Assembly (NCBI GenBank): GCA_003141555.1 | Contig: PLMN01000017.1 | Coordinates: forward strand, 33,609-67,664 | DNA: 34,056 bases | Direction of reading: 5' to 3' | Source of the DNA: Candidatus Aminicenantota bacterium | GTDB taxonomy: Bacteria > Acidobacteriota > Aminicenantia > Aminicenantales > UBA4085 | Shown: positions 5,338 to 33,852 of the stretch, one piece after another | Layout of the letters: every line of letters begins with the position of its first letter | How positions within the stretch are numbered: the first letter of the stretch is position 1 | Notes under the pieces: model-generated | Databases searched by the model: none | The model's input: the letters and a program-made list of their open reading frames with translations, nothing else | What the model was told of the DNA's origin: nothing | Position numbers and translations under genes: made by a program

Positions 5338-6450
5338 TCAGGTCCGGCGGCCGCGCCTGACCGCCACGAGCTCGGCCGCGATGCTGACCGCGATCTCCTC
5401 CACCGTCCGGGAGCCGATCGGCAGGCCGATGGGGGTCCGGACCCGGCCCCACTCCGCCGGGGAGCACCATCCTTTTTGGAGAAACCGCTCGCGGAGGAGG
5501 CCGACTTTGCGCCCGCTGCCGATCATCCCGACGTAGGCCGCTTTTCGGCGGATGCATGCCCGCAGGGCGCCCTCGTCGCCGCGGTGGCCCCGGGTGACGA
5601 TCACCACGTAAGCGGCCGGGCCGAGCGGCAGCCGCCGCAGAGCCTGGGCCGCGTCCGCGACCACGATCCGCGAGCCCTCCGGGAAGCGGCCGGCATCGGC
5701 CAATTCCGGCCGGTCGTCGATGACGACGATCTCGAAATTCAAGAGGCGGCCGAGATGGGCCACGGCCCGGCCGATATGGCCCGCGCCGGCGATGACGAGA
5801 CGGGGAGACGGGGCGTGGGGCTCGACATAGAGCGCCCCGCCCACGCCTTTGAACAGGCCCGGCTCCGCGGCCCGCAGGGCGGAGCTGCAAGCGCCGAAGG
5901 CGCGACCATCGCTGCTCCGAGCCGCCGCTCGGATGATATCCCTGAATGCGGACAGGGGCGCTCCTCCCGGGAGAGCTCCTCCGGCGGCTGCCGGCAGCCA
6001 GAAGCGCCGGACGTCCGCACCCCGGGACGCCCGCCCCGCCCCGATCCAGGTGATGAGCGCGCCCGACCGCCGGCGGCGAACGTCTTCCATCATTTTAAGA
6101 AAGACGGGGACATGGCGTTCGGGGCACGCGTCGATCAGGACGCGAAGCCGGCCCCCGCAGATGGCCTCGCTCTCGGCGGAAGGGTCGTAGCCGAGGTCGA
6201 GGGTTTTCAACCGCGAAACACCCGCGGCGATCGCCCGGCGGGCCAGAGCTTCGACCCGGGCTTCGCCGATGCCGCCGCCCACCGTCCCGCCCGCCCGCCC
6301 CCCGGCCGTGAAGACGGCCGAGGCGCCGGGGACCTGGGGCGCCGAGCCGGCGGACGCCACCACGGTCGCCAGCGCGGCCCGGGTCCCCGACCGGGCCAGC
6401 GCGATCAGCGTCGCGTAGGGGCTCGCGTCGGGGACGTAAGCGCGTTCCAT
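5338..6450 (-). CDS. XdhC/CoxI-family protein (molybdenum-enzyme accessory factor)
   Basis: A 370-residue XdhC/CoxI-family protein. Relatives load sulfurated molybdenum cofactor into xanthine-dehydrogenase-type enzymes. The N-terminal domain shows TVVASAGSAPQVPGASAVF and GGTVGGGIGE. The C-terminal Rossmann domain shows VIAGAGHIGRAVAHLG followed by VVIDDRPELA, then VIVTRGHRGDEGALRAC and VGMIGSGRKV. The ATG at 6450 is 2 bases past the stop of the M14 peptidase gene, so the two are co-transcribed. No molybdenum hydroxylase subunits are nearby. A stretch at 5871-5906, in the linker between the two domains, resembles an intergenic repeat found at 24860 (see findings). Confidence 0.9.
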   Translation of the reverse strand: MERAYVPDASPYATLIALARSGTRAALATVVASAGSAPQVPGASAVFTAGGRAGGTVGGGIGEARVEALARRAIAAGVSRLKTLDLGYDPSAESEAICGGRLRVLIDACPERHVPVFLKMMEDVRRRRSGALITWIGAGRASRGADVRRFWLPAAAGGALPGGAPLSAFRDIIRAAARSSDGRAFGACSSALRAAEPGLFKGVGGALYVEPHAPSPRLVIAGAGHIGRAVAHLGRLLNFEIVVIDDRPELADAGRFPEGSRIVVADAAQALRRLPLGPAAYVVIVTRGHRGDEGALRACIRRKAAYVGMIGSGRKVGLLRERFLQKGWCSPAEWGRVRTPIGLPIGSRTVEEIAVSIAAELVAVRRGRRT

Positions 6451-6452
6451 GG

Positions 6453-8363
6453 CTACTTCGGAAGGGCGAGCTTGAATTTCGCCTTTTCGACGCCGCCGCG
6501 GGTCGAGGAAATCGTCACCTCGGCTTCGGCGTCGGACTTGATCGAACCCTTGACTTTCCAGCGGACCTCCTTGAGCTGCTTCGGCTGGAGATAGCCGATC
6601 TCCTGGCGGGCCCGGCTGCCGACGAATTCCAGTCCGGACGGCAAGGCGACCTGGACCGAATCCGGCCGCACGATCTTCACCCGGTCGGCCTGCTTCAGCG
6701 CGGTCGGCAGGAAGCCCTCGTTCGTGAAGACGCTCACGATCTCGAACGTCCCAGGCTCCTTCGCAACCGGCACGATCCCGGTCGAGGCGATCTTCACCTG
6801 GGGCAGGGACTTGAAAAGGAGCAGGTTGAACAGGCCCTCTTTCTTGATCCACTCCTCGAGAAGCTCGGCCGGGGGATTCTGGCTCCAGAACTTGGGATTG
6901 AACCCGCCGATCTCCACTTCCCCGAGCTGGGGATGGTTGAACTTGTGCCAGGGGGTGAAATATTTGCCGCCCAGCTCTTCGTCGATATAGCGGAGCTGTT
7001 CGAGCGGCGTGACGCGGCCGTCGCCGTCGTAGTCTTTCAGCTGGCCGCCGTTCCACAGCTCGTCGCCGTACCAGATCGAGCCGTAGGTGAAATAGCCGAA
7101 GTCGGGGGAGTGGCCGAAGATCGGGGAGCCGCGGAGCTCGGCGCCCGGCTCCGGAGCGGCCGGCGCCTGAGCCCCGCCCCGCGCGCCGCGGTTGCCGACG
7201 GAGTAGTCGTAATACGAATCTCCGGCCCGGGCGTAGCCCGTGATCTTCTTGCCCTCCGTGTCGAAATACTTGTAGATCTTCGCGTCCTCGGGGAACATGG
7301 ACTCGTCCATGCGGCTCGTCGAAGGGCCATGGAGGAGCATGGGGACGGACGTGTCCATCGTCTGGCCGACGGACACGTTCGGATGCTCGAGGAGGAACAT
7401 CACGACGGCCCGCGTCTCGGGTTCGGAGAGGGGATACTCGCCCGAGCCCCCCTGGGTATAGCCCCGGCCGGTAAAGTCCAGACCGGGCATGGGCCGCCAG
7501 TTCTCGGGATAGTTCCGGTGCAGGTCGAGGCCGCCGAGGCCGTCCTCGTTGAACCGACCGTCGCCGTCGTTGTCGATGCCTTCGGAATAGACGATGTAAT
7601 CTCCCTTGCCGTCCGTGGCCCGAATCATCAGCCGCCCGGACTTGTCGGCGGGGTCGGCGATCATCGTCCCCTTGCCCGGCTCGACCTTCTTCCTCATCTG
7701 GAGGATGTAACCGTCGCCGTCGAGGTCTTCGGGCGGGTCCTCGTCGAGCAGGCCGTCGCCGTCGTCGTCATAAGGCCGGACCGTGCTCCGGTTGGACTGG
7801 GCCGTCAGGAGATAGAGGTCGGAGCCGTCGGGGTTGTTCTTGGGCTTGAGGTAGAGGGTCTTCGTGTCGACGAGCTTTGTGATCTCCGGATCCTGGCCGT
7901 AGTGCGACAGGATATACCAGCCGATCCAGAGGGCGCATTCGCTGGCCGTCACCTCGCCCGAATGGCGGCCGCCCTCGACGAACATCGCCGGCTTGTCCGT
8001 GTCCTTGCCGGCGGCCTTGTTGGTGATCGTGATCTGCCAGATGTCGCGGCCCTCGAAGCTCTTGCCGACAGAATAGAGGTCGACGAGGTTCGGATAATCC
8101 TTGGCCCATGTATTGAGGATGGAGACCGATTCATCGTACGTATGATAATGCTGGAAATCGATCTGGCCCGGGACCTTGGGCTTGATCTGGGGATAGTTCG
8201 CGAGCGGGAAGAAGCTCACCCCGTGGCGCTGGCCGCCGACGAGGTAGGCCTTGGTCGGCTGCGAGGCGCGGCGTCCCTGCGGCTCGAACTCCTGGGCCGA
8301 GATCATCAGCAGGACGAACGTGAACAGGGCGAAAAACGCTGGGAAACCATGTTTTTTCGTCAT
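6453..8363 (-). CDS. Secreted M14-family zinc carboxypeptidase-like protein
   Basis: A 636-residue exported peptidase of the M14 (carboxypeptidase A) clan. A signal peptide occupies about 1-23. The first zinc motif is HSGE (His134, Glu137), the substrate-binding stretch is DLHRNYP (280-286) and the likely catalytic Glu484 is in GEVEIGGF. Three DxDGDG-type calcium loops occur (near 199-220, 264-275 and 444-451), probably stabilising the fold. At the position where the third zinc ligand His is normally found (GQT-x-H-TS), this protein has Asp337; His345 lies nearby. The C-terminal roughly 120 residues form a beta-rich domain. The ATG at 8363 has AAGGAGG upstream. It heads a two-gene operon with the XdhC gene. 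Confidence 0.92.
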   Translation of the reverse strand: MTKKHGFPAFFALFTFVLLMISAQEFEPQGRRASQPTKAYLVGGQRHGVSFFPLANYPQIKPKVPGQIDFQHYHTYDESVSILNTWAKDYPNLVDLYSVGKSFEGRDIWQITITNKAAGKDTDKPAMFVEGGRHSGEVTASECALWIGWYILSHYGQDPEITKLVDTKTLYLKPKNNPDGSDLYLLTAQSNRSTVRPYDDDGDGLLDEDPPEDLDGDGYILQMRKKVEPGKGTMIADPADKSGRLMIRATDGKGDYIVYSEGIDNDGDGRFNEDGLGGLDLHRNYPENWRPMPGLDFTGRGYTQGGSGEYPLSEPETRAVVMFLLEHPNVSVGQTMDTSVPMLLHGPSTSRMDESMFPEDAKIYKYFDTEGKKITGYARAGDSYYDYSVGNRGARGGAQAPAAPEPGAELRGSPIFGHSPDFGYFTYGSIWYGDELWNGGQLKDYDGDGRVTPLEQLRYIDEELGGKYFTPWHKFNHPQLGEVEIGGFNPKFWSQNPPAELLEEWIKKEGLFNLLLFKSLPQVKIASTGIVPVAKEPGTFEIVSVFTNEGFLPTALKQADRVKIVRPDSVQVALPSGLEFVGSRARQEIGYLQPKQLKEVRWKVKGSIKSDAEAEVTISSTRGGVEKAKFKLALPK

Positions 8364-8422: not shown

Positions 8423-8470
8423 CGGCGGCTCGGGGGACGGCTTGGGGGGAGCTACGCTTTCTACGCTCTT

Positions 8471-8630
8471 CGGGCGTCGGACGGCGGGATCGAAAACACG
8501 CGGCGGCTTCCCAGCGCGAGCCGCCGCTCCGGCTTCGGCCTCCGCTCTCGCCCTATGCCCTTCGGGCATAGGACGAACCATGCCCGCTCCGGCCTCAGAC
8601 GGGTTTTCGATTCCCGCCATCCGACGCCCG
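8471..8630. repeat. 160-base nested palindrome with internal hairpins
   Basis: The outer arms 8471-8497 and 8603-8630 are inverted copies differing by one base and one insertion; on the minus-strand transcript the difference becomes a G-U pair. Inside lie a perfect 9-bp hairpin with a 3-base loop (8552-8560 with 8564-8572) and an 8-bp hairpin (8501-8508 with 8519-8526). This suggests a cloverleaf-like RNA or cruciform. No second full copy is in the window. Confidence 0.8.
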
Positions 8631-8696
8631 GGAACGTTGATTCCCTCGTTTCGGCTGGCCTTCTTCCCCTTAGCCTCGACAAAATCGTTCCGCACG

Positions 8697-8842
8697 GGCG
8701 AGGGGGGAGAGGAGCCGGAGGCCGTGCCGAGTGGGGCGCGGGCATGGACCGACGCCCTCTTGGGCGGCGGCCGCGCCACGAGGCCCGAGCCGGTTTCCGC
8801 GCCGGGGAAACCGGCGTGCCGACGGCCCTCTCCCCCCTCGCC
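8697..8842. repeat. Palindromic repeat unit, copy 1 (related to 33925-34056)
   Basis: Perfect 15-base inverted arms (8697-8711 and 8828-8842) enclose a GGCATGGACC segment at 8741 and a 10-bp hairpin at 8789-8815 whose loop carries a conserved core. The same order of elements recurs at 33925-34056. Confidence 0.8.
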
Positions 8843-8989
8843 ATATTTCCGGGCAGCGCAGGGGCTGGCTGGCGACAGGACCCGCGTCCCCGAGCCGGCG
8901 TGCCGACGGCCCTCTCCCCCCGAGCCCCGTCCCCCGAGCCACCCTGTTGGCCGGCCCCGAGCGCCCCTGAACAAAAATTTGCAAAGGTT

Positions 8990-9018: not shown

Positions 9019-9057
9019 AAGCGAAAAATGAAAAAGAACCAAGACGGGAGAACGAAC

Positions 9058-9231
9058 ATGAAGCTCAGAAATAAAATAATGATCCTGGCGGCATCGATCC
9101 TATTGTCGCTCGCGGCCTTCAGCCTGATCGCCGGGCCTTCGATCGACATGGTGAAGATGGGCAAGAAAGCCGGTTACGAAATGATCGTCAACTACCTGGC
9201 CAACGCCGAGCCGACGAGCCTGGCCCATTGA
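9058..9231 (+). CDS. Small exported or membrane peptide, function unknown
   Basis: A 57-residue peptide beginning MKLRNKIMILAASILLSLAAF, a textbook signal peptide or single membrane helix, followed by a short tail with MVKMGKKAGYEMIVNYL and a C-terminus TSLAH. I do not recognise a family. The start at 9058 is preferred over an in-frame ATG at 9028 because GGGAG lies 8-9 bases upstream and the signal peptide begins at once. A strong terminator (9292-9335) follows at a suitable distance, arguing that the gene is real. It is the only plus-strand gene among minus-strand genes in the first 23 kb, and it directly follows the repeat island. Confidence 0.7.
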   Translation: MKLRNKIMILAASILLSLAAFSLIAGPSIDMVKMGKKAGYEMIVNYLANAEPTSLAH

Positions 9232-23047: not shown

Positions 23048-23167
23048 CGCCTGCCGGGCGGGTCCTGTCGCCGACCAGCCCCACCGGCCTCGCTCATCAC
23101 CCTGACGAGGGTCCCATTCGCTTCGGCCGTTGGGGCGCCCCGGTCGGCGCCACCCGCCCGGCAGGCG
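23048..23167. repeat. 120-base palindromic intergenic repeat, copy 1
   Basis: A perfect 16-base outer stem (23048-23063 with 23152-23167), an inner 7-bp stem (23070-23076 with 23142-23148), an 11-bp stem with one mismatch (23079-23089 with 23125-23135) and an apical 5-bp hairpin (23099-23112). The 100 bases at 23058-23157 match 33753-33852 at 94 of 100 positions. It sits between two divergent promoters. Confidence 0.9.
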
Positions 23168-24799: not shown

Positions 24800-24803
24800 G
24801 GAG

Positions 24804-24988
24804 GCGAGGGGGGCGCCGCTTAAAAACCGGTCAATGTCCGGAGCGGGCACGGTTCGACGCCCGCAGGGCGGCGTCGCATGCGCCGGAGGCGCGACGATGG
24901 CGACCCCGAAGGGCGGAGAGAGCGACGGACATTGAAGAGCGAATTCCCTCGCCGGGGAAATTCGCGTGTTTTTGAGCGGCCTCCCCCG
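24804..24988. repeat. 185-base nested palindromic intergenic unit
   Basis: The gap after the fusion gene holds imperfect outer arms (24807-24826 with 24969-24988), a perfect 9-base inverted pair (24832-24840 with 24926-24934), small hairpins at 24857-24873 and 24880-24892, and a terminator-like hairpin at 24939-24965. No gene is seen here. Confidence 0.7.
24939..24973 (+). terminator. Probable intrinsic terminator of the MEMO-AMMECR1 gene
   Basis: A stem of about 10 bp (24939-24948 with 24954-24965, with small bulges) is followed by GTG and five Ts (24969-24973). Its loop core CGCCGGGGAAA is shared with hairpins at 8789 and 34018. Confidence 0.65.
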
Positions 24989-25064
24989 AACCCGGCCTAG
25001 GCAGATCTTGAGCCCGGCGGGAGCAAACCCCCACCCCCGAGCCGCCCCCCGCTCCCCTGATTTG

Positions 25065-33670: not shown

Positions 33671-33752
33671 TGTACCTATTTTAGGATTTCGCCGCGAGGG
33701 GTTCGGGGGCGGCTCGGGGGGAGATGGCCGTCGGCACGCAGCGTCGAGGGGA

Positions 33753-33852
33753 GCGGGTCCTGTCGCCGGCCAGCCCCAGCGGCCTCGCTCATCACCCTGA
33801 CGAGGGTCCCATTCGCTTCGGCCGCCGGGGGGCCCCGGCCGGCGCCACCCGC
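33753..33852. repeat. Palindromic intergenic repeat, copy 2
   Basis: It matches 23058-23157 at 94 of 100 positions in the same orientation. The 7-bp inner stem is kept though both partners of one pair changed (A-T at 23074/23144 is G-C at 33769/33839). The left flank (33711-33752) matches the reverse of 8886-8926. Confidence 0.92.

Follow-up and report, generated by a model that had tools for sequence, protein, structure and literature searches.

Integron attC sites are imperfect palindromes whose fold is conserved over their sequence and which are used as folded single strands. MITEs, ERIC, Correia and RUP sequences have ends that are conserved in sequence, often with short target duplications. 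The latter belong to a group of small mobile bacterial sequences that has been reviewed as a whole (PMC2229807). REPs and their RAYT partners are linked by the recognition, or presumed recognition, of the repeat as folded single-stranded DNA (PMC8266576). GTAG REPs have stems of 5-13 bp and a GTAG tag, and a second type, the CGTC-tagged REPs, features stems of 8-9 bp, loops of 4-5 bases, a CGTC tag and no known dedicated transposase (PMC3733652).

The repeats described here were found in an intergenic island of a Candidatus Aminicenantota genome (the host), within a window of 34,056 nucleotides, the whole stretch of DNA that was analysed. Like REP, BIME and REPIN sequences with their RAYTs, they are dispersed, intergenic, palindromic, nested and clustered, and long target duplications are absent; the likeness would extend to recognition as folded single-stranded DNA. 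Unlike these systems, the element measures 145-180 bases, folds around a three-way junction and features neither a tag nor a linkage to RAYT genes. A GTAG or CGTC tag with a short 5-13 bp stem is absent from the units, which in Aminicenantes end in GGCGAGG...CCGAGCC. CGTC-tagged REPs also have no dedicated transposase known, but they are unrelated to the element in sequence or structure. MITEs, ERIC, Correia and RUP are likewise non-autonomous, 100-250 bases long, intergenic and bounded by inverted terminal arms, whereas the element here has variable stems and a fixed unpaired core and occurs across phyla. As in attC, it is the fold rather than the sequence of an imperfect palindrome that is conserved, but cassette arrays were not noticed in the vicinity of the copies examined, and the conserved motifs would be different ones. 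The family is REP-like in its working, yet by the tests made it is not a REP.

Composition of the island

The island (8424-8943) is non-coding and lies between divergent genes. Its left neighbour is a minus-strand M14 carboxypeptidase gene that starts at 8363. On the right, a short conserved plus-strand gene at about 9028-9231 (MKLRNKIMILAASILLSLAAF...) adjoins ispF, and homologues stand in the same place in G003, G004, G005, G007 and G013. The preliminary description had reported inverted ends with a 14-base core, several distinct inner palindromes, an exact 27-base direct repeat and no gene inside, and all of these were found. The outer arms are exact 14-base reverse complements inside a 17-base pair (8424-8440/8927-8943) at 94%, and the inner inverted repeats include 8471-8489/8612-8630 (95%), 8697-8712/8827-8842 (100%), 8548-8560/8564-8576 and 8789-8801/8803-8815. 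The two copies of the direct repeat (8811-8837/8895-8921) are identical throughout their 27 bases, and the match can be extended to 32 bases at 94%. ORFs across the island gave no match in Pfam. Searches against Rfam, permissive thresholds included, found nothing relevant, either in the window or at six loci. The folding energy of the island is -324 kcal/mol as compared with -266 +/- 7 in dinucleotide shuffles (z -8.5), none of 100 shuffles being as good.

What did not hold is the view of a 514-base block as a single element with its own ends, since the block is composite, being assembled from fragments together with two or more family members. A nucleotide search of the host genome matched 54 places, several at contig ends, and on reading these matches split into three repeats, U1 and U3 of about 150 bases each and U2 of 100 bases. 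Nested in the island are a single U3, a single U1, 25 bases from an end of U2 and a truncated U1 3' end (Table 1). The same U1 terminus is present twice, which accounts for the exact direct repeat and makes the island a nest. The suggestion that fragments at 33.7-34.05 kb belong to a dispersed family also proved right, with further copies at 23058-23157 and 24817-24978.

Table 1. Repeats of the island and related copies elsewhere in the window.
Feature	Position	Strand	Remarks
Left outer arm of island	8427-8440		Exact 14-base inverted repeat with 8927-8940; adjoins the -35 box of the M14 peptidase gene
Family member U3	8471-8630	-	19-base P1 arms 8471-8489/8612-8630, 95% complementary; three-way-junction core
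Family member U1, divergent subfamily	8696-8842	+	16-base perfect arms 8697-8712/8827-8842
U2 terminal fragment, end ...GACAGGACCCGC as written on the plus strand	8861-8885	-	92% inverted match to 23058-23082
Truncated second copy of U1 3' end	8888-8926	+	Direct repeat with 8811-8842
Right outer arm of island	8927-8940		Pairs with 8427-8440
Complete 100-base U2	23058-23157	+	94% identity to 33753-33852
Further family member	24803-24993, outer ends by eye	+	R1 match 24817-24978, 70.6 bits
Inverted fragment, U1 3' end	33711-33749	-	
U2 copy	33753-33852	+	
U1 copy, cut by contig end	33926-34056	+	

A covariance-model search, which had been proposed as a check on the island, recovered copies both in the host and in relatives. 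Model R1 matches the island U3 at 8487-8613(-) with 79.8 bits, this copy being part of its training alignment, and the diverged island U1 at 8712-8828(+) with 24.0 bits (E 4e-5). The U1 subfamily numbers about 18 copies in the host genome, and sister U1 copies score 26-65 bits. No U1 was used in building R1, and U1 and U3 are therefore one family. U2 was considered as a further member and rejected, as it scores only 2.6 bits with R1, although its termini are identical to those of some Omnitrophota copies. The element at 24803-24993 starts directly after a stop codon and harbours a hairpin (24859-24909, nested repeat D5) in its arm P2. The same palindromic repeat of about 50 bases occurs at 5870-5920, apparently within coding sequence; the ORF there, on the minus strand downstream of the M14 gene, is probably XdhC-like, and the repeat was not seen in its G004 orthologue.

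The shared fold and its covariation

The family unit of about 145-180 bases consists of a stem, P1, that leads into a three-way junction with two arms, P2 and P3. In an alignment of 51 cores, in which the fixed blocks were partly demanded by the search pattern while the stems were not, P2 features a GGCC-type stem, an internal loop (GAGCGGGCANGG opposite GAGCG, also given as GAGCGGGCAYGG/GAGCG) and then a variable hairpin; P3 is a variable stem with the loop CGCYGGG. Copies of U3 from other families of the host order have the fixed blocks in common and differ in their stems. Conservation in the alignment of cores peaks in the middle of the element and not at its tips.

The covariation score is 0.606; shuffles give 0.145 (0/500), and sliding the pairing gives no more than 0.165. 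The double-changed cells number 261. In 74 further copies from the Aminicenantes side, mostly of the host order and class, nearly all outside the training set and aligned by fitting to R1, the score is 0.586 vs. 0.152 when shuffled. R1 excludes the outer stem, so that the support for P1 is separate: the median P1 arm score is 34 as compared with 16 for mispaired arms. Mismatches in P1 are 405 G.A vs. 91 T.C and 214 G.T vs. 126 A.C, counts that are non-independent as the copies are related. The excess of G.A and G.T identifies the strand carrying GAGCGGGCAYGG as the folding strand.

The termini differ between lineages. Of the 106 copies recovered with the pattern, 7 have both ends of GCGGGTGRC...RCAGGACCCGC, and the copies with these termini include several from Omnitrophota records. 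These termini are common to the host U2 and to Omnitrophota copies, which suggests, from the sequences, that exchange between phyla may have taken place.

Dispersal and insertion sites

R1 finds at least 24 copies in the host genome (E<0.01). Across 149 genomes of the host phylum, at least six have R1 matches, the richest being G005, G015 and G146 with at least 16-24 copies, and in the phylum to which an Omnitrophota record belongs at least 86 of 193 sampled genomes carry the element, with up to at least 18 copies. Six named genomes contain at least 2-25 copies each (CP070825.1, at least 25). A pattern scan with the U3 core across 84,980 genomes returned at least 119 records. Most of the listed matches belong to Candidatus Aminicenantes, Candidatus Omnitrophota and Patescibacteria, the last including Parcubacteria, Liptonbacteria, Portnoybacteria, Berkelbacteria and Sungbacteria; some listed matches in GC-rich genomes are chance occurrences without the fold. 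High-scoring members also stand under the names of other phyla (L066 and L073 in Actinobacteria FK_Sedi_B_Bin.138, L101 in Clostridiales A05DMB-I-28), and these are either misbinned contigs or the result of horizontal transfer. Carriage by viruses was rejected, as all eight pattern matches in viral contigs were foldless by eye and are due to chance.

Seven host contigs (C6, C7, C11, C19, C25, C26 and C28) have ends that fall inside family repeats. Contigs that start or stop in this manner indicate that the family breaks short-read assemblies, and the true copy number is probably above that counted. A search of the literature on structured RNAs of Omnitrophica and Aminicenantes, on REPs of the candidate phyla radiation and on three-way-junction or palindromic repeats found no description of the family, and a dispersed three-armed repeat family of this kind is apparently undescribed so far.

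The mobility of the family is well supported. Copies within one genome are up to 98.6% identical and have different flanks, and the orthologous site in G003, G005 and G013, which represent three related genera other than that of the host, has the same gene order but lacks the island. There, the M14 gene is separated from the homologous short gene by about 180-300 bases as compared with nearly 700 in the host. Near-identical copies, differing flanks and empty orthologous sites together mark these sequences as dispersed non-autonomous mobile repeats. In G004 and G007, dissimilar nests, one of about 770 bases and one of about 1 kb, come after the M14 promoter box, and R1 finds no family member in them; the G007 nest contains a relative of U2 and a REP-like hairpin. 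These loci (L248 and L253) appear as a hot spot of repeat-in-repeat insertion. The junction near the -35 box is similar in the host, G004 and G007 (GTCAA, then a CTCGG run), which suggests that a single old insertion at the M14 site likely went on to gather further repeats.

The target-site duplications for which the preliminary description had advised a search did not appear: none of 4-10 bases surrounds any of 30 copies, some of whose boundaries were misplaced by the script. In the same set, and with the same misplaced boundaries, 2-base flank matches number 7 vs. 2.8 expected. A pre-existing palindrome as the target was rejected, flank complementarity being not above expectation. Divergent gene pairs surround 34 of 132 copies as opposed to 90 of 635 (p 0.002), as judged from crude ORF calls. 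The GC skew of CP070825.1 and CP070655.1, computed with a view to replication-strand bias, lacked a two-arm pattern, and a stretch sampled there contained no G or C at all. Relative to neighbouring genes, the copies show no orientation bias (43 "--" vs. 38 "++"), which fits DNA landing in intergenic space and disfavours a cis-acting leader RNA. A trans-acting RNA is possible.

Mobilisation and alternative explanations

Probably, in our judgement, the island consists of small non-autonomous mobile elements nested in one another, which a putative enzyme would recognise in folded single-stranded form and mobilise in trans. That its repeats share a structure, are numerous and dispersed, are present or absent at orthologous sites and are nested is observed; movement as a folded single strand by a trans-acting enzyme would be the likeliest mechanism. 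The strand with GAGCGGGCAYGG folds into the long terminal stem P1, the three-way junction and the arms P2 and P3, the unpaired nucleotides of P2 and P3 staying fixed while the stems vary freely through paired substitutions. A putative trans enzyme would recognise this folded strand, which might form in a cruciform or on the lagging strand, for instance, and would copy or move it, much as TnpA-REP acts on REPs. The element would in this way spread as DNA across the intergenic regions of bacterial chromosomes, where insertion may prefer or tolerate sites just upstream of promoters and the interiors of earlier copies. Correction of the quasi-palindrome via template switching may keep the stems Watson-Crick, with very few G.T intermediates.

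An enzyme of the RAYT (TnpA-REP) kind would suit elements that are palindromic, intergenic, nested and abundant, and the search for such a gene advised in the preliminary description did find two RAYT-like genes in the host (L054 in C22 and L055 in C17). These are flanked by their own, different repeats, GGAGACACAATACC and GGTGACAGTAACC, and are unlinked to the element, as are the other inspected Y1 loci, which also bear different repeats of their own. Of 39 Y1 transposase loci from the host family, order and class, none has the element closer than about 1.5 kb (best E 0.02), and across 193 genomes Y1_Tnp occurs in 70 of 86 with the element and in 84 of 107 others (odds ratio 1.2, p 0.72). No Y1 gene was found in G238, G244 and G322, which carry 16, 18 and 11 copies. 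With the GTAG/CGTC tag missing as well, mobilisation by RAYT/Y1 was rejected on flanks and on co-occurrence, and we give it very little credence; of the readings first offered, that of dispersed, structured, mobile-looking non-autonomous repeats stands and the REP/RAYT link falls. Several U2 copies carry a third REP-like type (GGGGACACAGAAC) in their loop. Derivation from an ordinary DDE insertion sequence, with P1 as the terminal inverted repeat of a MITE-like remnant, would suit the small size, the dispersal and the lineage-specific tips of the terminal stem (GGCGAGG...CCGAGCC; GCGGGTGRC...RCAGGACCCGC). It is nevertheless quite improbable, given that no target-site duplication above 3 bases was seen in 30 copies, that conservation is strongest mid-element, and that no ORF-bearing version, or copy split by an internal ORF, was found in the loci examined. 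Around the 119 listed loci there is no recurrent neighbour gene of note.

Were RNA the functional form, the observed structure would be identical in appearance. Strong covariation around a three-way junction, with unpaired nucleotides that stay fixed, is typical of RNA, and the G.A and G.T mismatches lie on the strand that folds. A multi-copy family of structured transcripts, either a trans-acting sRNA or the RNA of a ribonucleoprotein and perhaps retro-mobile, deserves consideration. We regard it as unlikely, as the direction of neighbouring transcription shows no bias, Rfam has no match, and G.T makes up about 1% of P3 pairs, below the level expected of RNA. In the Omnitrophota-phylum sample, reverse transcriptases occur in 22 of 86 genomes with the element, none being found in the other 64, and in 25 of 107 genomes without it (p 0.74). 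A role as bidirectional terminators or insulators, selected for local gene expression, might be read from the intergenic position and from an outward TTGAC, a -35-like sequence seen within 60 bases of the core 3' end in 16 of 70 Aminicenantes copies, the 5' side having it in 3 of 70 (p 0.002). The promoter pattern is missing in other lineages and orthologous sites stand without the element, which makes such a role highly improbable.

The reading as mobile elements recognised as folded single strands could be taken further. It is conceivable, and we put it forward tentatively, that they form a new class of mobile element in several candidate phyla, with a single-stranded three-way-junction substrate, an enzyme outside the transposases known to be linked with palindromic repeats, and stems renewed by a templated process that leaves the fold and the unpaired core as the sole inherited parts. 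If the proposed explanation is true, a repeat family with a complex conserved fold, and with neither an Rfam entry nor a description in the literature searched, would be carried by Aminicenantes, by some Patescibacteria and, in the phylum that includes an Omnitrophota record, by nearly half of the genomes sampled. The family would help to explain why assemblies of these metagenome-derived genomes break, and its defined fold and motif would provide a handle for finding a new enzyme that handles single-stranded DNA. It would also constitute a natural data set on the upkeep of perfect stems.
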